The notes under the pieces are model-generated. The model made no database searches. It was not told the origin of the DNA and saw only the letters and a program-made list of their open reading frames with translations. A DNA stretch of 13,774 nt, taken from contig JAUYMQ010000142.1 in NCBI GenBank assembly GCA_030698575.1, positions 1-13,774 on the forward strand, in the 5' to 3' direction. Below are positions 4,432 to 13,732 of this stretch, in pieces. Position numbers and translations under genes: made by a program. Within the stretch, counting starts at the first letter, position 1. Each line of letters starts with the position of its first letter. This stretch comes from Deltaproteobacteria bacterium (GTDB taxonomy: Bacteria > JAUYMQ01).

Positions 4432-4461
4432 AATAACGGGGTCTGACCCCTTTATTTTAGC
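4432..4461. repeat. GGGGTC-N-GACCCC palindromic repeat, copy A
   Basis: Core GGGGTC (4438-4443), centre T, GACCCC (4445-4450), extended by AATAA (4432-4436) and TTATT (4452-4456) that also pair. The TAA stop of aguA (4457-4459, minus strand) is directly at its edge. The flanking TATTTTAGCGG is shared with copy C at 11928-11938, so the unit is larger than the palindrome. Same orientation as copy C, opposite to copy B. It may act as the 3' stem-loop of the aguBA transcript. Confidence 0.8.
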
Positions 4462-5644
4462 GGGGCTGAGGCTGGGTGAGGCAGTGGAGCGAGCCGAGCC
4501 CCAGGATGAGATCCACCGAATGAACCCCGATCACTTCCCGCCCCGGGAACAGCCGCCCCAGCGTGTCGAGGGCGAGATGATCGCTGCGATCGTTGAAGGT
4601 GGGCACCAGGACGACCCGATTCCCGATGTAGAAGTTCGCGTAGCTCGCCGGCAGGCGGTAGTCCTCGAAGTGGATCGGCTCGGGCATCGGAAGCGTCACG
4701 ACGCGGAAGGCCCGCCCCCGCCCATCCCGCGCCTCGCGCAGGCGCGCCAGGTTGTCGGCCAGCGGAGCGTGATTCTCGTCACGCCGGTTCCCCTCCCGCG
4801 CCACCACGATCGTCTCCGGATCGACGAACCGCGCGATGTCGTCCACGTGTCCATGCGTGTCGTCGCCCGCGACCCCCCGCCCCAGCCAGAGGATCTGCTT
4901 CACCCCCAGGTGCTCGCGGAAGACCTTCTCGAGATCGGCCCGTGAGAGATGGGGATTTCGCGCCTGCACCTTCGAGAGGTGACACTCCTCGGTGGTGATC
5001 ATCGTGCCCTGCCCGTTCACCTCGATGCTTCCCCCCTCCAGCACGACCGGCTTGCCGCCCGCCTCGGGGACGATGCGCTCCATCTCCAGCACGCGCGCGA
5101 GCTTCGCGTTCACCGCGTTGTCGAGGCGCCAGTTCGAGTACCTGGCCCATGCGTTGAACTTCCAGTCCGTCATGACGATCTCCCGGCCACGGCGAACGAA
5201 GATGGGGCCGAAATCGCGCATCCAGGAGCGGTTGGTCGGCACCACGTAGAAGCTGACCGCGCTCTCGTCGACCCGCGCCTTCGCGAGCATGCGCCGCACC
5301 CGCTTGCGCATGGCGGTGTCCTTCACCAGGATGCGCACCGGCTCGCTTCGCGCCAGGAGCCGCGCAATCTCGACGTAGACCCATTGGATGGCGGCGAGCT
5401 TCCCGGGCCAGTCGGCGGCGTGGTGGGGCCAGGCGATCCAGGTCGCCGCGTGGGGCTCGAACTCGGCGGGCATGCGGTAGCGGGGAGGCGCCTCTCGGGG
5501 GAGCGCGGGCTGTCGCGCGCCGGAGCGGGGACGCGACGGAGAGCCCGGCGATCGCTCCTTCGGTGCGGGCTTCTTCGCAGGGGCAGACTGCGGCGAGAAC
5601 GCCCCGCGGGATTGGGCGCCACGCCGGGAGCGTCGTCGGCTCAC
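4457..5644 (-). CDS. aguA: agmatine deiminase (peptidyl-arginine deiminase family)
   Basis: Hydrolyses agmatine to N-carbamoylputrescine and ammonia in the cytoplasm, the step before the enzyme encoded upstream. The guanidine-deiminase fold shows Asp144 in WMRDFGP, Glu203 in LEGGSIE, His264 in DDTHGHVDD and the nucleophile Cys388 in GLGSLHCLTQ near the C-terminus. I chose a GTG start at 5644 that overlaps the upstream aguB stop by four bases (GTGA). Homology as I know it begins a few residues before Met58 (PPRYRMPAEFEPH), which leaves the ATG at 5473 slightly too late. That ATG (338 aa) also lacks a good ribosome site. The GTG start gives 395 residues, about 50 more than usual. The extra part is Arg/Lys/Pro/Ser-rich, low-complexity and probably disordered. 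The stop codon sits at the edge of a palindromic repeat. The enzyme call is strong; the start is uncertain. Confidence 0.9.
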   Translation of the reverse strand: MSRRRSRRGAQSRGAFSPQSAPAKKPAPKERSPGSPSRPRSGARQPALPREAPPRYRMPAEFEPHAATWIAWPHHAADWPGKLAAIQWVYVEIARLLARSEPVRILVKDTAMRKRVRRMLAKARVDESAVSFYVVPTNRSWMRDFGPIFVRRGREIVMTDWKFNAWARYSNWRLDNAVNAKLARVLEMERIVPEAGGKPVVLEGGSIEVNGQGTMITTEECHLSKVQARNPHLSRADLEKVFREHLGVKQILWLGRGVAGDDTHGHVDDIARFVDPETIVVAREGNRRDENHAPLADNLARLREARDGRGRAFRVVTLPMPEPIHFEDYRLPASYANFYIGNRVVLVPTFNDRSDHLALDTLGRLFPGREVIGVHSVDLILGLGSLHCLTQPQPR

Positions 5645-6531
5645 GGGTCGATGAATCGCCGGGTAATGGGCGCGTAGGCGTCCACGCGCCGGTCTCGAAG
5701 GAAGGGCCAGTCGCGGCGCACGCTCTCCTGCAGCGCGGGATCGCACTCGGCGAGCAGCACCGTCTCGGACTCGGCGGCCGCCGCAATGAGCCGCCCGAAG
5801 GGATCCGCCACGAAGGAGTGGCCGAAGAATTCGATGCCGTCGCCGGCGCCGGGCTTCTCGTAGCCGACACGGTTCACGGCCGCGACGTACACGCCGTTCG
5901 CGATGGCGTGCCCCCGCTGCACCGTCTGCCAGGCGTCGACCTGGGCGCGACCCTCGGCCTCTTTCTCGGCCGGGTGCCAGCCGATGGCCGAGGGGTAGAG
6001 AAGCACGTGCGCTCCCTGTAGCGCCGTGAGCCGCGCCGCCTCGGGGTACCACTGGTCCCAGCAGATGAGCAGCCCGATGCGCGCCACCCGGGTGTCGAAG
6101 CAGCGGAAACCCAGATCACCCGGCGTGAAGTAGAACTTCTCGTGGTAAAGCGGATCATCCGGGATGTGCATCTTCCGGTAGTGCCCGAGATAGCTCCCGT
6201 CGGTGTCGATCACCGCGGCGCTGTTGTGATAGATGCCCGGCGCCCGCCGCTCGAACAGTGGCGCTACAATCACCACCTCGAGCGACTTCGCCAGCTTTCC
6301 GAGCGCCTCAGTCGTCGGCCCGGGGACGGGCTCGGCAAGATCGAAGTGCGCGGGGTCCTCGCTCTGGCAGAAGTACGGAGCAAGGAACAGCTCCTGCATG
6401 CACACGATCTGCGCTCCCTCGCGGGCCGCCTCTTCGATGCGCGACGACGCCAGGGCGAGGTTCTCCGCCGGATCGTTGGTGCAGGCCATCTGGACGAGGC
6501 CGAGGGTGAATTTGCTCGCGGGAACCGTCAT
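5641..6531 (-). CDS. aguB: N-carbamoylputrescine amidase (nitrilase superfamily)
   Basis: A 296-residue carbon-nitrogen hydrolase that cleaves N-carbamoylputrescine to putrescine, CO2 and ammonia. The Glu-Lys-Cys triad is visible: Glu47 in CMQELFLAPYF, Lys120 in HYRKMHIPDD, Cys157 in LLICWDQWYPE. The segments HIPDDPLYHEKFYFTPGD and SAIGWHPAE match AguB proteins more closely than general nitrilases. The length is standard. It lies 50 bp after the radical SAM gene and overlaps aguA by 4 bp, so translation of the two Agu enzymes is probably coupled. The ATG at 6531 has a pyrimidine-rich upstream stretch and no clear ribosome site, so it may be read through from the upstream cistron. No arginine decarboxylase to make agmatine is in the window. 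Confidence 0.92.
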   Translation of the reverse strand: MTVPASKFTLGLVQMACTNDPAENLALASSRIEEAAREGAQIVCMQELFLAPYFCQSEDPAHFDLAEPVPGPTTEALGKLAKSLEVVIVAPLFERRAPGIYHNSAAVIDTDGSYLGHYRKMHIPDDPLYHEKFYFTPGDLGFRCFDTRVARIGLLICWDQWYPEAARLTALQGAHVLLYPSAIGWHPAEKEAEGRAQVDAWQTVQRGHAIANGVYVAAVNRVGYEKPGAGDGIEFFGHSFVADPFGRLIAAAAESETVLLAECDPALQESVRRDWPFLRDRRVDAYAPITRRFIDP

Positions 6532-6581
6532 GCGACGGGAGGGTAGAGAGGGGCCGGGGGGATGTCAATCGCGCAGCACAT

Positions 6582-8024
6582 CTAGATCCATTCGCGCTGC
6601 GCAACCGTCGGCTCTGCGCAGCAGTACCAGGGCTCGCTCATGCGCGGCGCGGGAGCGGCGCGGAACGCATCCGGACCCGGAGGAGGCGCATCATGAAGAC
6701 CGGCCCGCGTGTGTGCGCGCTCCCAGATGCGCCCGAAGAGTTCCCGCCGCGGTGCATCCGGCGCGGCCTGCGCCAGCGCCTCCAGCTCGGCCTGCAGCGC
6801 ATCGACGCGGGCGTCGGGGTTGCGCCAGGGGTGGCAGAGCGCCTGCGCGTCGAGCGGGCCGGCGAGGGACTTCACCTCGTCGAGATCGAGAAGCCGCGAG
6901 CCCGAAGGCAGGAGCAGCCTGATCGCGAGGTGCACCGGCGCGACGCGCTCGGCGATTCCGAGCGCCGCCACGTCCCGCAGGAGATCGAGGTAGCCCTCGA
7001 GCGTCGTCCAGGGCGTGAAGGGAACGAAGGTGGGCGCGAGCGGGAGCCCGGCCTCCTCGCAGATCGCCACCGCGTGGTGGAAGCCGGCGCGCGTGTGCCC
7101 CTTCAGGAGCCGCGCGAGCACACGGTCGTCGACCGACTCTGCCGCCGAGGTCACGAAGAGGCATCCGGTTTCCTTCAGGAGCGCGGGAGCGCCGGGCGTG
7201 TCGAGCAGATGCGAGATCTTGATGGTCACGTCGTAGGTGATGTCGGGAAAGGCGGCCTTGAGCGCCCGGATGATCGCGAAGGCGTGCTTCGGGCCGTTCA
7301 GAAAATCCGGATCGCCGAACGTGACGTGCCGCGCGCCGGCCGCCACCTGCTGGGCGACGTCCGCTATCACCACGTCGGGGGGCACCACGCGGAACCGCCC
7401 GTCGTAGACCGGCACCACGGGGCAGTGCCGGCAGCGATGCTTGCACCCGCGGCTTGCCTCCACGTAGCCCGCCAGGCGCTCCGTTCCATCCGGGAGCACG
7501 AGCTTCGCGTAGCGATCGAGCGGGGGGAGACCAGTGCGGTCGGGCACGCGGAAGCGCTGCCGCGCCGTAGAGATGCGCGGCTCGGGTTGCGCTGACTCCA
7601 GTTCCGGCCCGCCGGTCGCCGGAGCCGGGCCGTTCCTCTCAAGACTCTGGGCAAGACGCTCGGCGAGCGCGAGGAGCCCCGCTTCGAACTCCCCGCCGAG
7701 GACCGTCCTGACGCCGAGCTGGCGCAGGTAGGGCTCGTTCATCGGGGCATAGAGGCCGTAGGCCGCGAGGTGCGCCGCGGGGTTCAGCGACCTGAGGCGC
7801 GGCAGCAGGCTGGCCGCCAGGCGGGTGGCGGTGTGCATGGGGAGATAGAGGGCCACGAGATCGGCGTCGCGAACGGCTGTCTCGTCGAGAGCGTCGATAC
7901 TCAGATCGAGCAATTGAACGTCGTGCCTGTGGGGCGCTTCGGCGTCACGGAGCCAGGCCGCGGGCTCGGCCAGGCCGAAGGGCGGCCGCCCCAGCTCGTA
8001 TGTGGAGAGCAGCAGGATCTTCAA
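6582..8024 (-). CDS. B12-binding-type radical SAM protein with CCAEP tail
   Basis: A 480-residue radical SAM enzyme of unknown substrate. An N-terminal Rossmann-like domain (1-125: KILLLSTYELGRPP, LVALYLPMHTATRLA, VLGGEFEAG) resembles B12-binding domains, but I see no DxHxxG cobalamin-His motif. A linker rich in Pro/Glu follows (130-165). The 4Fe-4S cluster motif is Cys194-x3-Cys198-x2-Cys201 (ASRGCKHRCRHC). The barrel continues with VTFGDPDFLNG and a long helical C-terminal region. The protein ends WYCCAEPTVAQREWI, with Cys468-Cys469-Ala-Glu-Pro. That is the signature of the family NCBI calls CUAEP/CCAEP-tail radical SAM (seleno)protein, in which many members have selenocysteine at the second position; here both are TGC Cys. 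The start is a TTG at 8024 behind GTGAGG, chosen because homology to KILLLS begins there; upstream in-frame sequence is antisense of nothing but the DUF169 gene. It lies 25 bp after the DUF169 gene. Confidence 0.85.
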   Translation of the reverse strand: MKILLLSTYELGRPPFGLAEPAAWLRDAEAPHRHDVQLLDLSIDALDETAVRDADLVALYLPMHTATRLAASLLPRLRSLNPAAHLAAYGLYAPMNEPYLRQLGVRTVLGGEFEAGLLALAERLAQSLERNGPAPATGGPELESAQPEPRISTARQRFRVPDRTGLPPLDRYAKLVLPDGTERLAGYVEASRGCKHRCRHCPVVPVYDGRFRVVPPDVVIADVAQQVAAGARHVTFGDPDFLNGPKHAFAIIRALKAAFPDITYDVTIKISHLLDTPGAPALLKETGCLFVTSAAESVDDRVLARLLKGHTRAGFHHAVAICEEAGLPLAPTFVPFTPWTTLEGYLDLLRDVAALGIAERVAPVHLAIRLLLPSGSRLLDLDEVKSLAGPLDAQALCHPWRNPDARVDALQAELEALAQAAPDAPRRELFGRIWERAHTRAGLHDAPPPGPDAFRAAPAPRMSEPWYCCAEPTVAQREWI

Positions 8025-8049
8025 GGACGCCTCACCGCGCGCGGGCTTC

Positions 8050-8763
8050 TCATCCGGGATGCGCGGCGCGCATCTCGTCGTACATCCCCTGCATCGCGCG
8101 ATTGGCGGCGGAGGTTTGCTCGAGCGCCGCGACGAGCGTCGCCGCGCCCGCCGCAGGTACGACGCCCAGAAGCTTCGCGTCGTCGAGATCGGTGAAGGTG
8201 CGCATGCCGGCGCATCCGAACGAAAGCACGGGGCGTCCGTCGGCCAGCGCCACGGGGAGCGCGGCGCAGGAGGGGCGCCCGAAGGCCGGCATCGATGCCG
8301 GGCGGTCCCAGCGCGCATCACCCGAACCTTCCTGGAACAGCATGGCCTGCCGCGCGTCGAGCCAGAGCAGGATGAGATCGGGCGTGTCGGGGAAGGCAGC
8401 AAGGGGGCCGTAGAGCACGCCCGCCTTCGTCTTTCCCACGCGCGGGATGCGCGCGGGTTCGGGCGGCGCGAGGTAGCCCGCCCCGGTCATGCGCGTGATG
8501 ACGGCTTCGAGGTTCCGCTCTCCCTCGGCGCCGAGGGTGAAACCGCTGGTCAGCGCGCCGACCGGGCAGTTCATGTGATCCTCGGCGGAGGCGAAGAAGA
8601 CGCTACTTTCGGCCCGCCGCCAGAAGGTGCAGGCAGAGGGGACGGGTCCGCCGTCCCAGCGGGGCGTGCCCGGCGGCGGCTCGTCGAGATAGGCGAGCGC
8701 CACGGGAGGCGACGCGAGGCCGAGGAGGTGGGTGAGCGAGCCGGCGATCTGCTTCTGCGACAT
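8050..8763 (-). CDS. DUF169 family protein
   Basis: A 237-residue cytoplasmic protein of the DUF169 family, whose biochemical role is not known to me. The typical order of motifs is present: PPVALAYLDEPPPG near the N-terminus, CTFWRRAESSVFFASAEDH with Cys45, and NCPVGALTSGF with Cys66. A later LSFGCAGMRTFTDL follows. Conserved Cys and His around 45-66 suggest a metal or cofactor site. ATG at 8763 has a GGAGG ribosome site 9 bp upstream. It is the first gene of the leftward operon with the CCAEP radical SAM, aguB and aguA, and faces the ATP-grasp gene across 84 bp. As first gene beside a Cys-rich radical SAM enzyme it may supply or accept a cofactor or substrate; that is inference. Confidence 0.85.
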   Translation of the reverse strand: MSQKQIAGSLTHLLGLASPPVALAYLDEPPPGTPRWDGGPVPSACTFWRRAESSVFFASAEDHMNCPVGALTSGFTLGAEGERNLEAVITRMTGAGYLAPPEPARIPRVGKTKAGVLYGPLAAFPDTPDLILLWLDARQAMLFQEGSGDARWDRPASMPAFGRPSCAALPVALADGRPVLSFGCAGMRTFTDLDDAKLLGVVPAAGAATLVAALEQTSAANRAMQGMYDEMRAAHPG

Positions 8764-8847
8764 CGGTGGGCCTCCGTGATTGGCGCGGGGTCGTCCCCCG
8801 GTTTGATTCCGAGGTTGAACCGCCTATTCTTGCCTCGAGAGGCAAGG
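8764..8847. promoter_or_regulatory. divergent promoter region between DUF169 operon and ATP-grasp gene
   Basis: Only 84 bp separate the two start codons, so both promoters must lie here or overlap the genes. A rightward candidate is TTGATT (8803-8808), 16 bp, TATTCT (8825-8830), each box matching 4 of 6 consensus bases. Next to it the inverted repeat TGCCTC-GA-GAGGCA (8831-8844) overlaps the presumed start point and the ribosome site of the ATP-grasp gene. It could be a repressor operator. I found no clear leftward promoter by eye. Confidence 0.4.
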
Positions 8848-10086
8848 ATGAATCGGGTCTTACTGCTGCTTCCGACGACCACCTATCGCGCGCGGGATTT
8901 TCTCGATGCGGCGCGGCACCTGGGTGTCGAGGTGGTCGTCGGCACCGAGGGACATCAGGCGCTCGAGAAGGTCGCGCCGGGGGGCACGATCACGCTCGAC
9001 TTCTCAGACACCGCCGCCGCCACCGCGGCCATCGTCGAATTCAGCAGGACGCACCCGCTAGAGGCCATCGTGGGGACCGACGACGAGACGGCCCTGCTTG
9101 CGACACAAGCTGCCACGGCGCTGGGGCTGCGCGCAAACCCGCTCGGGGCCGTGGCGCTCACGCGCAACAAGTACCGGCTGCGCCGGGCGCTGGCGGAAGC
9201 CGGCCTCCCCTCCCCGCCCTACAAACTCCTCACGATCACCGACGACCCCCGGGCTGCCGCCGGAGAGGTGCCTTTCCCCTGCGTGCTGAAGCCCACTTTC
9301 CTTTCGGCGAGCCGCGGGGTCATCCGGGCCGACGACGCCGACGCCTTCGATGCCGCCTTCTACTGCATCGCGGGTCTCCTTGCCGATCCCGACGTGCGGC
9401 GGCGAGGCGGCGACGCCTCCGGGGAGATCCTCGTCGAGGGATACATCCCGGGCGAGGAGTACGCCGTCGAGGGGATGCTCGAGAAGGGAGGGTTCCGGCT
9501 TCTCGCGTTGTTCGACAAGCCCGACCCCCTCGAGGGGCCCCACTTCGAGGAGACGATCTATGTGACGCCCTCGCGCGCGACGAAAGAGCGCCAGTCGATG
9601 ATCCTCGAGAAGATGCGCATGGCGCTCGTGACGGTGGGCCTGCGCGAGGGCCCGGTGCACGCCGAGCTGCGCTGCAACGACGAGGGCGCCTTCATTCTGG
9701 AGATCGCGGCCCGTTCGATCGGCGGCCGCTGCGCGCGCGTGCTGCGGTTCGGGGCGGGGCTGTCGCTCGAGGAGCTGATCCTCCGCCACGCGATCGGCAA
9801 AGAGGTCGCGGACCTCGAGCGCCAACCCGGCGCGGCGGGGGTCATGATGATCCCGATCCCGCAGGCGGGCATCCTGAAAGAGGTGAAAAACCTCACGGCT
9901 GCGCGGGCCGTCAGGGGGATCGAGGAAATCGACATCGCGATCGCGCGGGGGAAGCCGCTCACGCCGCTCCCCGAGGGCAATCGCTACCTCGGGTTCATCT
10001 TCGCCCGCGGCGCCGCGCCCGAGGAGGTCGAGGCCGCGTTGCGGGAGGCGCACCGTCGGCTCGAGATCGTCGTGGCGCCGGCCTGA
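8848..10086 (+). CDS. ATP-grasp ligase, substrate unknown
   Basis: A 412-residue ATP-grasp protein expected to couple ATP hydrolysis to joining a carboxylate with an amine or thiol. The N-terminal Rossmann-like domain (1-100) opens MNRVLLLLPTTTYRARDFLD and contains IVGTDDETALLA. The ATP-grasp core has NKYRLRRALAEAGLPSPP (107-124), Lys148 in FPCVLKPTFLSASRG, ILVEGYIPGEEYAVEG (194-209), and the Mg-binding ILEIAARSIGGR (283-294, Glu285). A C-terminal domain follows (about 320-412). The pattern fits the amino-acid-ligase / carboxylate-amine ligase branch rather than biotin carboxylase or PurK. ATG at 8848 follows GAGAGGCAAGG. An upstream in-frame opening is only antisense of the DUF169 gene. Divergent neighbour of the DUF169-radical SAM-agu operon, so probably the same pathway; a polyamine or its derivative as amine donor is a guess. 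Confidence 0.88.
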   Translation: MNRVLLLLPTTTYRARDFLDAARHLGVEVVVGTEGHQALEKVAPGGTITLDFSDTAAATAAIVEFSRTHPLEAIVGTDDETALLATQAATALGLRANPLGAVALTRNKYRLRRALAEAGLPSPPYKLLTITDDPRAAAGEVPFPCVLKPTFLSASRGVIRADDADAFDAAFYCIAGLLADPDVRRRGGDASGEILVEGYIPGEEYAVEGMLEKGGFRLLALFDKPDPLEGPHFEETIYVTPSRATKERQSMILEKMRMALVTVGLREGPVHAELRCNDEGAFILEIAARSIGGRCARVLRFGAGLSLEELILRHAIGKEVADLERQPGAAGVMMIPIPQAGILKEVKNLTAARAVRGIEEIDIAIARGKPLTPLPEGNRYLGFIFARGAAPEEVEAALREAHRRLEIVVAPA

Positions 10087-10158: not shown

Positions 10159-10761
10159 CTACTTCCCGGCCTGGTAGTAAGGATTGGAGCCTGACCCGTG
10201 GTCGGTGCTGTCGAGCACGGCGATGATCTCGGGTATCTCGGCCTTGAGTGTTTCCTCGATCCCCTGCTTCAACGTGACGTCGGCCATGCCGCAGCCCTGG
10301 CAGCCGCCGCCCATCCGGATGTACACGTTCCCATCCTTGACGCCGAGCAGCGTGATGCTCCCGCCGTGGCTTGCGACGCCGGGGTTGATGCGATCTTCGA
10401 TGACCTTCTGCACGCGCATGACGAGGGGATCGGAAGCGGCGGGCGGCTGATTGGGGTTCTCGAACTTGAAGCCGCTGCTCGACATGCCGCTGACGAAGTC
10501 GAGCGTGGCGCCTTGTAGGCGCGGGACGGTTTCCTTGTCGAGATAGACCATCACGCCGGCGGCATCGACGACCTCGTCGTCTTCGCTCTTCTCGTCCTGG
10601 CTCACCAGGCGAAGATCGTACTTCCAGGCGGCCACACCCTCTTCGGTGACCGTCACGCGCACCGCCGTATCGAGCCGGTTCTGTGACTCCTGGATCTCCG
10701 TGATCTTTTCCCGGGCTCCATCCGTCAGCGTCAGAATTTCTCCGTCGATTTCGTCTGCCAT
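10159..10761 (-). CDS. nfuA: NfuA-type Fe-S cluster carrier
   Basis: A 200-residue cytoplasmic scaffold/carrier that delivers 4Fe-4S clusters to apo-enzymes. Residues 10-105 form a degenerate A-type (IscA/HesB-like) domain: LTDGAREKI, GVMVYLD and GFKFENPN are recognisable but the cluster Cys residues are absent, as is normal for NfuA. Residues 112-185 form the NifU C-terminal domain with VASHGGSITLLGV and the cluster-binding pair Cys154-x2-Cys157 in GGCQGCGMAD. The ATG at 10761 is the only good start in frame. A strong AAGGAG lies 20 bp upstream, too far for an ideal ribosome site. Such a carrier could mature the cluster of the nearby radical SAM enzyme, but NfuA serves many clients. Transcribed toward the ATP-grasp gene. 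Confidence 0.92.
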   Translation of the reverse strand: MADEIDGEILTLTDGAREKITEIQESQNRLDTAVRVTVTEEGVAAWKYDLRLVSQDEKSEDDEVVDAAGVMVYLDKETVPRLQGATLDFVSGMSSSGFKFENPNQPPAASDPLVMRVQKVIEDRINPGVASHGGSITLLGVKDGNVYIRMGGGCQGCGMADVTLKQGIEETLKAEIPEIIAVLDSTDHGSGSNPYYQAGK

Positions 10762-10800: not shown

Positions 10801-10833
10801 CTTAAATAATGGGGTCAGACCCCTTTATTTAAG
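10801..10833. repeat. GGGGTC-N-GACCCC palindromic repeat, copy B
   Basis: The most complete palindrome of the family: outer arms CTTAAATAA (10801-10809) and TTATTTAAG (10825-10833) pair fully. Inner arms GGGGTC (10811-10816) and GACCCC (10818-10823) pair around a single A; one T/T mismatch separates the two parts. The TGA stop of the RAYT gene (10815-10817, minus) lies across its centre. In reverse orientation it matches copy C at about 30 of 33 positions. Confidence 0.85.
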
Positions 10834-11753
10834 CCCATGCATTGAAGAATTCGCGCGCCCTCGCCGCTCCTGGCAAGCTTTCCGTGAATTTGCGACACGC
10901 GCGGTTGAGACACCCCGCACCGCTCGGCGATCTCGGCGAGTGGCAGCTTCGCCCAATGCCGCAGAAGGAAAACGGCCGCCTGAAATGCATCCCTGTTCGA
11001 TCGATCGAGCACCGACGCGGCATCCAGTTCGAACGCGCTTGCAACCGCACCGAGAACATCGCCCGCGTCGGGCGGCTCGCCTTCGGTCCAGGGAATCAGG
11101 GGCGCAAGTCGCTGTTCGCGCGCGGCCGATCCGGGCATTATCATTGTCGAACGCCTGCCACCCAGTCGCGCCGTTTTCCGTAGCTCCTTCAGCGGCGATC
11201 TCGCGCCGATCCCGCCCACGACTAAACGCTCGTAGGCCTCACTGCCGTTCTCGCCCGGCCCTTCGAATTGACCAAGAACCCAATCCGTAGTCAGCCATGA
11301 AGGCCGTCGCGCCTTCCCGACCGTCGCCCTGTAGCTGCTCCATGCCCACCGTGCCGGGAACTCCGCCAACCCCGCCCGGACCGGGTTGAGAACGATATAG
11401 CGGCTCAGTTCCAGCAGATAAGCGTCCCGATCAACGAGCTTGCCCTTGAATCGACCCTGGAACAAATGCCCCACGCGCTGGTGGCGCCAATTGAACCACT
11501 GCGTATACAGCCCGTTCAATTGCTGCATGCCTTTGGAAAGATTCGCCAACGGCGTTTCCAGAAGAAGGTGAAAGTGATTGGGCATCAGGCAGTAGGCATG
11601 GCAAAGCCAATCCTGGTCGCGGACTGCATCGCCGAGATGTTTCAGGAAGCGCCGGTAATCCCCGCTGGAAAGGAACGTCTTCTGACGTGCGTTTCCGCGT
11701 GAAGTAACGTGGTAGATCGCTCCGTCGAACTGCACCCGCGGTTTTCTTGGCAT
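10815..11753 (-). CDS. REP-associated tyrosine transposase (Y1/HUH family)
   Basis: A 312-residue single-strand DNA transposase-like protein. The N-terminal Y1 domain shows AIYHVTSRGNARQ, the HUH metal-binding pair His60-x-His62 in MPNHFHLLLE, GHLFQGRFKGKLVD and ELSRYIVLNPVRAG, where Tyr119 is the likely nucleophile. The C-terminal part (265-300, PLAEIAERCGVSQPRVSQI) is a helix-turn-helix resembling the DnaA-type domain of long RAYTs. I start at the ATG at 11753 because GGAGG lies 5 bp before it. An in-frame ATG four codons earlier (11765) has none. The last residues GLNKGV and the stop are encoded inside palindrome copy B. The catalytic motifs look intact, so it may be active. Confidence 0.9.
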   Translation of the reverse strand: MPRKPRVQFDGAIYHVTSRGNARQKTFLSSGDYRRFLKHLGDAVRDQDWLCHAYCLMPNHFHLLLETPLANLSKGMQQLNGLYTQWFNWRHQRVGHLFQGRFKGKLVDRDAYLLELSRYIVLNPVRAGLAEFPARWAWSSYRATVGKARRPSWLTTDWVLGQFEGPGENGSEAYERLVVGGIGARSPLKELRKTARLGGRRSTMIMPGSAAREQRLAPLIPWTEGEPPDAGDVLGAVASAFELDAASVLDRSNRDAFQAAVFLLRHWAKLPLAEIAERCGVSQPRVSQIHGKLARSGEGARILQCMGLNKGV

Positions 11754-11772
11754 TGTTGCCTCCATGCAAGAA

Positions 11773-13120: not shown

Positions 13121-13144
13121 AAAGGGGGACCGTCCCACCTATTT
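13121..13144. repeat. GGGGGAC-N-GTCCC repeat, copy E
   Basis: AAAGGGGGAC (13121-13130), C, GTCCCACCTATTT (13132-13144). It overlaps the TGA stop of the peroxiredoxin-like gene (13139-13141, minus strand), so it forms the 3' flank of that gene. It has the same orientation as copy D and may act as a stem-loop between the two cistrons. Confidence 0.65.
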
Positions 13145-13732
13145 CACTTGTCGCTTCGCGGATTTCGGGCGCCGGGCCTTGGCGCCGTCGGGCTTCTTCT
13201 TACGCGGCTTGTCGAGCGCGGCCAGGATATCGGCGGTGTCGGCGTGGTCGCCGGCCTCTTTACTCCTCTGCGTGAAGAGCACCTTGCCCGCGGGCGTGAT
13301 GACGAATACCCCACCCTGCTGCCACGGATCGCCCTTCACCGAGGTCTGCACGTTCCCACTGCTGAGCGCGCGCAGCCCATGCAGCATCGACCGCGGCCCG
13401 AGCGAGCTGATGAGCCCGCGCCGCAGCCCCGCCGCCCGATAGGCCTCGAGGGCCGGGTCGGTGAGCAGGGGGAATGTGATCTTCTGCTTCTCCTTGAAAT
13501 CGCGGGCCTGCTCGGGCCGCCCGTTGCCGACGACCACCAGCTCCGCGCCGCGGTCGTGTATCTGTTTCAACTCGCCCCGCAGATCGGCCACCTGCTCCCG
13601 GCAGAAGAGGCAGCCGAAGTGCCGGATGAACGCCAGGACAACCGGCTTCTCCCCCCACATGTCCCCCAGCCGCACTTTCTTGCCCGACGGGTCGAGGAGA
13701 TCGATGCCCGCCAGCTTGGTCGCAACGCTCAT
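13139..13732 (-). CDS. peroxiredoxin-like (AhpC/TSA, PRXL2-type) protein
   Basis: A 197-residue thioredoxin-fold protein of the peroxiredoxin-like group. The expected role is thiol redox or peroxide handling in the cytoplasm; no signal peptide is visible. Residues 31-50 carry VVLAFIRHFGCLFCREQVAD with Cys41-x2-Cys44, the CxxC that replaces the single peroxidatic Cys of classical peroxiredoxins. Fold motifs GKKVRLGDMWGEKP, ELVVVGNGRPEQARDF, FPLLTDPALEAYRAAGL and GGVFVITPAGKVLF follow in the expected order. The C-terminal 25 residues are Lys/Arg/Pro-rich, an unusual basic tail. ATG at 13732 follows GGGAGG at 7 bp. The stop codon overlaps repeat copy E. Probably first gene of a pair with the lipoprotein gene. 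Confidence 0.88.
   Translation of the reverse strand: MSVATKLAGIDLLDPSGKKVRLGDMWGEKPVVLAFIRHFGCLFCREQVADLRGELKQIHDRGAELVVVGNGRPEQARDFKEKQKITFPLLTDPALEAYRAAGLRRGLISSLGPRSMLHGLRALSSGNVQTSVKGDPWQQGGVFVITPAGKVLFTQRSKEAGDHADTADILAALDKPRKKKPDGAKARRPKSAKRQVK

Follow-up and report, generated by a model that had tools for sequence, protein, structure and literature searches.

The window analysed here is the entire contig JAUYMQ010000142.1 (13,774 bp), which belongs to the Deltaproteobacteria bacterium assembly GCA_030698575.1 (4.1 Mb in 653 contigs, 91.6% complete). It carries a gene for a radical S-adenosylmethionine (SAM) protein with a C-terminal CCAEP tail and a divergent gene for an ATP-grasp ligase, the two subjects of this analysis, accompanied by genes for a DUF169 protein, an AguB-like amidase, an AguA-like deiminase and an Nfu-type iron-sulfur (Fe-S) carrier (Table 1). 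The first five of these genes lie where an earlier note on this DNA had placed them, with gaps of 50 bp (aguB/radical SAM gene), 25 bp (radical SAM gene/DUF169 gene) and 84 bp (DUF169 gene/divergent ATP-grasp gene); the Nfu-type gene, which is convergent with the ATP-grasp gene across a gap of 72 bp, falls outside the range given there. The 4-bp overlap between aguB and aguA described in that note holds with the GTG start of aguA; homology to AguA begins only near residues 55-57, so the ATG at 5473, which yields a normal protein and leaves a gap of about 167 bp to aguB, is the likelier and more natural start, and with it the overlap is lost. Both Agu-like proteins fall in the families assigned by the note and both score under the curated equivalog cut-offs; a specificity for agmatine is likely rather than certain.

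Table 1. Features of the window and ATP-grasp genes of the ArsL clusters used for comparison.
Feature	Sequence	Position	Strand	Basis or remark
AguA-like agmatine deiminase; probably bystander	Window	4457..5644	-	PF04371 (PAD_porph) 390 bits; TIGR03380 279 bits, cut-off 382
AguB-like N-carbamoylputrescine amidase; probably bystander	Window	5641..6531	-	CN_hydrolase; TIGR03381 318 bits, cut-off 410
CCAEP-tail radical SAM protein, 480 amino acids, TTG start at 8024	Window	6582..8024	-	NF040546 rSAM_CUAEP 589 bits, cut-off 500
Cys468-Cys469 codon pair, radical SAM C-terminus	Window	6618..6623	-	CU, UC or UU in relatives
DUF169 protein, occasional partner	Window	8050..8763	-	PF02596, 64 bits
ATP-grasp ligase, L-amino-acid ligase family, 412 amino acids	Window	8848..10086	+	ATP-grasp_4 PF13535 104 bits; LAL_C2 PF18603 57 bits
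Codon of ligase invariant Cys295 (IGG-x-C)	Window	9730..9732	+	TGA (selenocysteine) in four relatives
Nfu-type (NfuA-type) iron-sulfur carrier	Window	10159..10761	-	Fe-S_biosyn PF01521 + NifU PF01106
ATP-grasp, amino-acid-ligase-like gene in ArsL cluster	L171	1483-2706
ATP-grasp, amino-acid-ligase-like gene in ArsL cluster	L172	1436-2668
ATP-grasp, amino-acid-ligase-like gene in ArsL cluster	L173	6572-7777
ATP-grasp, amino-acid-ligase-like gene in ArsL cluster	L185	6709-7773
ATP-grasp, amino-acid-ligase-like gene in ArsL cluster	L186	1741-2964

The radical SAM protein is a member of family NF040546, as its bit score exceeds the family cut-off and it possesses both the CxxxCxxC motif (residues 194-201; C194, C198 and C201) and the C[CU]AEP tail, in which U denotes selenocysteine (Sec); here the tail reads WYCCAEPT, with CCAEP at residues 468-472. 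The radical SAM cysteines are invariant across 99 homologues, and Cys288 is kept in 94 of them. NCBIfam already names this family as a (seleno)protein, a name that carries no function, and we know of no biochemistry on any radical SAM protein with a CUAEP or CCAEP tail. The predicted model (predicted local distance difference test score, pLDDT, 92.9) most closely matches the fold of AprD4 (Z 25.9, rmsd 3.8 over 399 residues), followed by OxsB, MgmA and TsrM, all of which have in common with it an N-terminal Rossmann domain and a radical SAM core. Unlike these enzymes, the CUAEP/CCAEP family features its unique CC/CU tail, and the DxHxxG motif for base-off B12 binding occurs in the N-terminal regions of only 3 of the 99 homologues. 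Some B12 enzymes with the AprD4/OxsB/TsrM-type fold lack DxHxxG.

The divergent gene encodes a protein composed of an ATP-grasp_4 domain and the C-terminal domain typical of L-amino-acid ligases (LAL). Its best profile match is BL00235 (PDB 3vot, E=1e-70), and its predicted model (pLDDT 91.5) superimposes on 3vot with a TM-score of 0.84; by domains, profile and predicted fold, it is a member of the L-amino-acid (dipeptide) ligase family. BL00235, which reportedly synthesises Met-Gly and Met-Met (PMC6920838), matches the window ligase over its full length with the same ATP-grasp_4 and LAL_C2 domains. The two proteins differ in that their identity is about 24%, that BL00235 has a Ser where the window ligase and its relatives have Cys or Sec at position 295, directly after the HAE-R and E-x-x-x-R-x-IGG motifs, and that the window-type ligase nearly always accompanies the radical SAM family.

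This association was surveyed by scanning 84,980 species genomes, in which at least 563 proteins related to the radical SAM protein were detected. The 80 best loci were combined with four from whole genomes and a plasmid into a set of 84 relative loci (85 with the window itself). These were searched by tblastn with all window proteins, and all their open reading frames were clustered into neighbour families. The ligase gene neighbours the radical SAM gene at 53 of the 84 loci; it lies within 400 bp in 44 of these 53, and downstream on the same strand in 47. Co-occurrence was assessed in 386 genomes with about 256 family codes, on all of which both profiles were run; the phylum-level genome sets around G000 and G048 comprised one genome each, and this broader set of relatives was used. 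Of the 386 genomes, 19 encode the radical SAM protein, and every one of them also encodes the ligase, which has 25 carriers altogether and occurs in 6 of the 367 other genomes (Fisher p = 2e-27). After collapse to families, which takes out much of the non-independence among genomes, the ligase accompanies the radical SAM protein in 13 of 13 families and occurs in 5 of 243 without it (p = 4e-18). In several genomes (G039, G111, G137, G249, G275, G317 and G377) the two genes lie on separate contigs, and since both are retained there, their co-inheritance is more than mere linkage. The gene distribution thus argues that the radical SAM protein and the ligase are a conserved functional unit that is passed on jointly in many bacterial phyla, an association stronger than the earlier note had claimed.

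The same survey does not extend the unit to the polyamine genes. The earlier note proposed a modified or conjugated polyamine, in which the ligase would join putrescine supplied by AguA and AguB, and at the window the two agu genes are indeed co-directional with the radical SAM gene. However, no AguA homologue was found by tblastn at any of the 84 loci, and AguB gave two matches only, both weak (28-30% identity) and within the nitrilase superfamily; one nitrilase that adjoins the ligase (L036, 7060-7479) is 30% identical to AguB and no orthologue. A strong AguB orthologue is encoded by 55 of the 386 genomes, namely by 5 of the 19 radical SAM carriers and 50 of the 367 non-carriers (Fisher p = 0.17), and in the four other genomes that have both, AguB is on another contig or megabases away. 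The ligase, moreover, has its kin among amino-acid ligases, not polyamine ligases. The polyamine link is rejected on both neighbourhood and genome distribution, a polyamine product being very improbable, and the Agu genes are most plausibly bystanders on this one contig. Of the two kinds of neighbour that the note expected for the radical SAM/DUF169 pair in relatives, the ATP-grasp gene is found and the agu genes are not. DUF169 itself, which the note had counted in the cassette, proves to be a partner in a minority of loci, 7 of the 84 having a homologue in the vicinity of the radical SAM gene.

Four Cys motifs (around AC/GC-x-x-W, NCP, RPxCA and GCxGxR) are common to the DUF169 protein of the window and those of six relatives, as if they were metal or Fe-S cluster ligands. 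At two DUF169-type loci the next genes encode a SAM methyltransferase and a CdhD-like ferredoxin-domain protein; the families were assigned by scan in L065 (11109-13042) and from the resemblance of its sequence starts and layout in L079 (11949-13903).

More frequent companions are two proteins of Fe-S metabolism, the Nfu-type protein (PF01106/PF08712) and YggX (PF04362). An Nfu-type protein was detected by tblastn at 11 of the 84 relative loci, and the clustered open reading frames revealed YggX as a common neighbour, present at 37 loci. Close to the radical SAM gene, 36 of the 85 loci have YggX and 11, the window among them, have an Nfu-type protein; no locus has both. From these neighbourhood and co-occurrence counts, the conserved unit is best described as the radical SAM protein, the ligase and either Nfu or YggX; DUF169 joins it occasionally. 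The ligase, when it lies apart from the radical SAM gene, often adjoins an Nfu-type gene, and the ligase gene of genome G190, in which the radical SAM gene is missing, precedes a cysteine-desulfurase-like gene (L176, 8556-10979). The main rival to a biosynthetic reading is built on these partners: the two enzymes might serve Fe-S homeostasis by making a small ligand, or modifying a component, for cluster building or repair by Nfu or YggX, instead of producing a metabolite for secretion or storage. At 47 of 85 loci the module has one or the other partner next to it, the ligase keeps its Nfu neighbour even where no radical SAM gene is nearby, and the desulfurase-like gene of G190 would fit as well. 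Nfu and YggX may, however, merely serve a demanding radical SAM enzyme; the YggX count is inflated by the conserved gene order of Acidobacteriota, in which aconitase is also nearby, even if unrelated genomes, too, have YggX directly 5' of the radical SAM gene; and the module occurs in 19 of 386 genomes, most Fe-S-using bacteria being without it. We consider this explanation rather unlikely. On the far side of the Nfu-type gene, the window encodes a REP-associated tyrosine transposase-like protein (10815-11765, minus strand; 76 bits, curated cut-off 80).

Both enzymes of the module exchange Cys for Sec at fixed sites. Among 99 radical SAM sequences the tail is CU in 60, CC in 37, UC in 1 and UU in 1, the last two being found in Chloroflexota (UCAEP in L100, 10001-11377; UUAEP in L101, 6200-7579), and the tail tree requires 13 Sec/Cys changes, at least 8 of which are forced by well-supported branches. 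In the ligase the column of Cys295 is invariant, with TGC or TGT in 74 and TGA in 7 of 81 matched sequences and nothing else; the seven TGA codons represent four genes, some of which were fetched more than once. These four genes (L083, G094, G233 and G363) all neighbour Sec-type radical SAM genes of one clade, so Sec probably arose once in the ligase. A second copy of the ligase, of the Cys type, is present apart from the radical SAM gene in G094 (Sec type, L178 10015-11247; Cys type, L179 8770-9990) and likewise in G233 and G363.

The in-frame TGA codons are read as Sec because they match the distribution of the Sec machinery. In 19 genomes examined, SelB scored over the cut-off in 17 of 17 with a TGA tail and under it in both with a CC tail, and it is present in the three TGA-ligase genomes examined (G094, G233 and G363); SelD was undetected in the same two CC-tail genomes, the source genome and G180, and its match in G137 is weak. 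A hairpin (GGGAC-CGGGAT-GTCCC, 5 of 5 pairs) starting 21 nt from the TGA is present in 4 of 4 TGA ligase genes and in 1 of 63 Cys genes, evidence that is only suggestive, as the four TGA genes are related. Minimum free energy z-scores alone separated Sec from Cys ligase genes poorly (means -0.6 and 0.5), unlike the positional hairpin. The relatives' ligases therefore combine an in-frame TGA at the Cys site, Sec machinery and a hairpin resembling a bacterial selenocysteine insertion sequence; the window ligase has Cys. The agreement with SelB and SelD, and the fact that Cys is the sole alternative residue, disfavour recoding of TGA to anything but Sec. Selenium is also unlikely as a substrate or soft atom, given that the source genome and G180 carry the module without detected SelD; the pathway itself thus appears independent of selenophosphate. 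The window further encodes a SelL-related redox protein (13139-13732, minus strand; NF040769, 142 bits), in a genome in which neither SelB nor SelD was detected.

Sec/Cys interchange is common at redox sites, and YggX and Nfu are tied to oxidative stress in other bacteria. It could be argued on this general background that the module has to do with redox protection alone, the CU/CC tail and the ligase Cys being regulatory or redox sensors of separate pathways under common control. Such an arrangement seems improbable, more so than any role in Fe-S homeostasis: the two genes are co-inherited even when they are unlinked on the chromosome, a pattern that common transcription leaves unexplained, and Cys295, aligned with the Ser of BL00235, directly follows the ligase motifs HAE-R and E-x-x-x-R-x-IGG.

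An inventory published in 2026, which covers 119 families of prokaryotic selenoproteins, includes the radical SAM families TIGR04167 and NF045646, and both the CUAEP radical SAM family and ATP-grasp proteins are missing from it (PMC13188914). We found no published account of the CUAEP/CCAEP family or of a Sec ATP-grasp protein, either of which may be mentioned in the 2023 and 2025 selenoprotein work by Haft and co-workers; a Sec-containing ATP-grasp ligase appears to be undescribed so far. Other selenoproteins with a CU motif, namely SaoL, HgcA, MbdU and a form of CopZ, are organometallic or metal-binding proteins (PMC13188914). SaoL, HgcA and MbdU, which are annotated with metal or organometal chemistry (PMC13188914), resemble the CUAEP tail in their Cys-Sec pair, and their folds are unrelated to that of the CUAEP radical SAM protein.

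The closest other family of the radical SAM protein is ArsL (NF040542), to which the window protein does not belong: it scores 263 bits against a cut-off of 450 and ends in WYCCAEPT instead of RCCLKC. ArsL functions in arsinothricin biosynthesis and is predicted to transfer the 3-amino-3-carboxypropyl group of SAM to arsenic (PMC8552651). It is of the same radical SAM branch as the CUAEP family, with the same CxxxCxxC motif and vicinal C-terminal Cys residues, and several of its clusters include an ATP-grasp ligase. The differences are an identity of 29-32%, the tail sequence (RCCLKC versus CCAEP/CUAEP), and the Sec forms, the Nfu/YggX partners and the lack of nearby ars genes, which characterize the CUAEP family only. 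Cys288 of the CUAEP family is Val in the ArsL type, which has an additional Cys in its tail, so that each type may present three soft ligands, an interesting similarity.

Six loci of the ArsL/RCCLKC-tail type were viewed, and an ATP-grasp gene is present in five (Priestia twice, Alicyclobacillus, Pantoea and Klebsiella; Table 1), the sixth being the Pseudomonas arsQLM cluster, which has none. The ligase-bearing clusters lie on plasmids of Priestia, Alicyclobacillus, Pantoea and Klebsiella. As five of six ArsL loci carry a distant ATP-grasp gene, an amino-acid-ligase-like partner is seen for two families of this radical SAM branch, and the gene content of the ArsL clusters suggests arsinothricin-type peptides as products.

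The parallel could be taken further to an ArsL-like metalloid pathway, in which a carbon-metalloid bond would be formed at an arsenic-type atom bound by Cys or Sec and the ligase would build the product into a peptide. ArsL is, at 263 bits, the closest other family, both families end in vicinal Cys residues, an ATP-grasp ligase is also found in ArsL/RCCLKC clusters that include ArsM, and the other CU-motif selenoproteins point to metals (PMC13188914). Against this stand the identity to ArsL of merely 29-32% and the gene context. No arsenic gene (ArsM, ArsR, ArsQ) is found in the window, and in 1.44 Mb of related loci there is no homologue of ArsR, ArsB, ArsH, ArsN1 or ArsQ and a total of four weak or isolated matches to ArsM, ArsC or ArsI. 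Arsenic as the substrate is unsupported by the context of the CUAEP loci, and we regard the metalloid pathway as unlikely, though less so than redox protection alone. As the CUAEP loci are without arsenic context, the ArsL parallel backs a type of reaction more than an element.

We propose, at about even odds, that the radical SAM protein and the ligase form a co-inherited two-enzyme biosynthetic module which produces an amide-linked, dipeptide-like metabolite with the aid of soft Cys/Sec ligands. By analogy with ArsL, the radical SAM enzyme would first generate an amino-acid-like intermediate. The flexible Cys-Cys/Sec tail may then bind a soft atom or an electrophilic or thiol-reactive intermediate, as the Cys/Sec interchange and the CU-motif metal proteins suggest. 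In the following step the ligase, whose class is assigned from family and fold, would activate a carboxylate with ATP as an acyl phosphate and form an amide with a second amine to give the dipeptide-like metabolite, Cys/Sec295 presumably lying near the substrate. Nfu or YggX may provide the radical SAM enzyme, or the pathway, with new or repaired Fe-S clusters, or may itself be served by the product. DUF169 would be an accessory in a minority of lineages, and AguA and AguB neighbours at the source contig alone. More tentatively, and with somewhat less confidence than in the module itself, the module may represent a natural-product or cofactor pathway, new to the literature and spread over several phyla, in which both consecutive enzymes hold the same soft-atom intermediate by a catalytic Cys or Sec; the ligase would then be the first Sec-dependent ATP-grasp enzyme.

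Several observations weigh against this proposal. Gene co-occurrence falls short of proving consecutive steps, and four genomes have the ligase but not this radical SAM gene; in genomes of this kind a divergent radical SAM copy was sought and, one weak match apart, not found. The locus counts are weighted to Acidobacteriota and to the 80 closest matches, and related genomes are non-independent. Three ArsL-type ATP-grasp proteins are 22-26% identical to the window ligase, with profile E values down to 1e-44, and lack its Cys, and, as arsenic genes do not accompany the CUAEP loci, the ArsL analogy may stop short of the substrate.

The biosynthetic module, if correct, gives an orphan radical SAM family of hundreds of bacterial species a dedicated partner enzyme, and because the reaction type of this partner is predictable, the product of the radical SAM pathway can now be searched for. 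The pathway would be a relative of the ArsL-type clusters of radical SAM protein and ligase. Its apparently undescribed Sec ligase would add to the known selenoenzymes, which are dominated by mostly thioredoxin-like redox proteins, one of a new kind. The parallel with the ArsL clusters suggests a broader class of pathways combining a radical SAM enzyme with a ligase, perhaps including unrecognised arsinothricin peptides.

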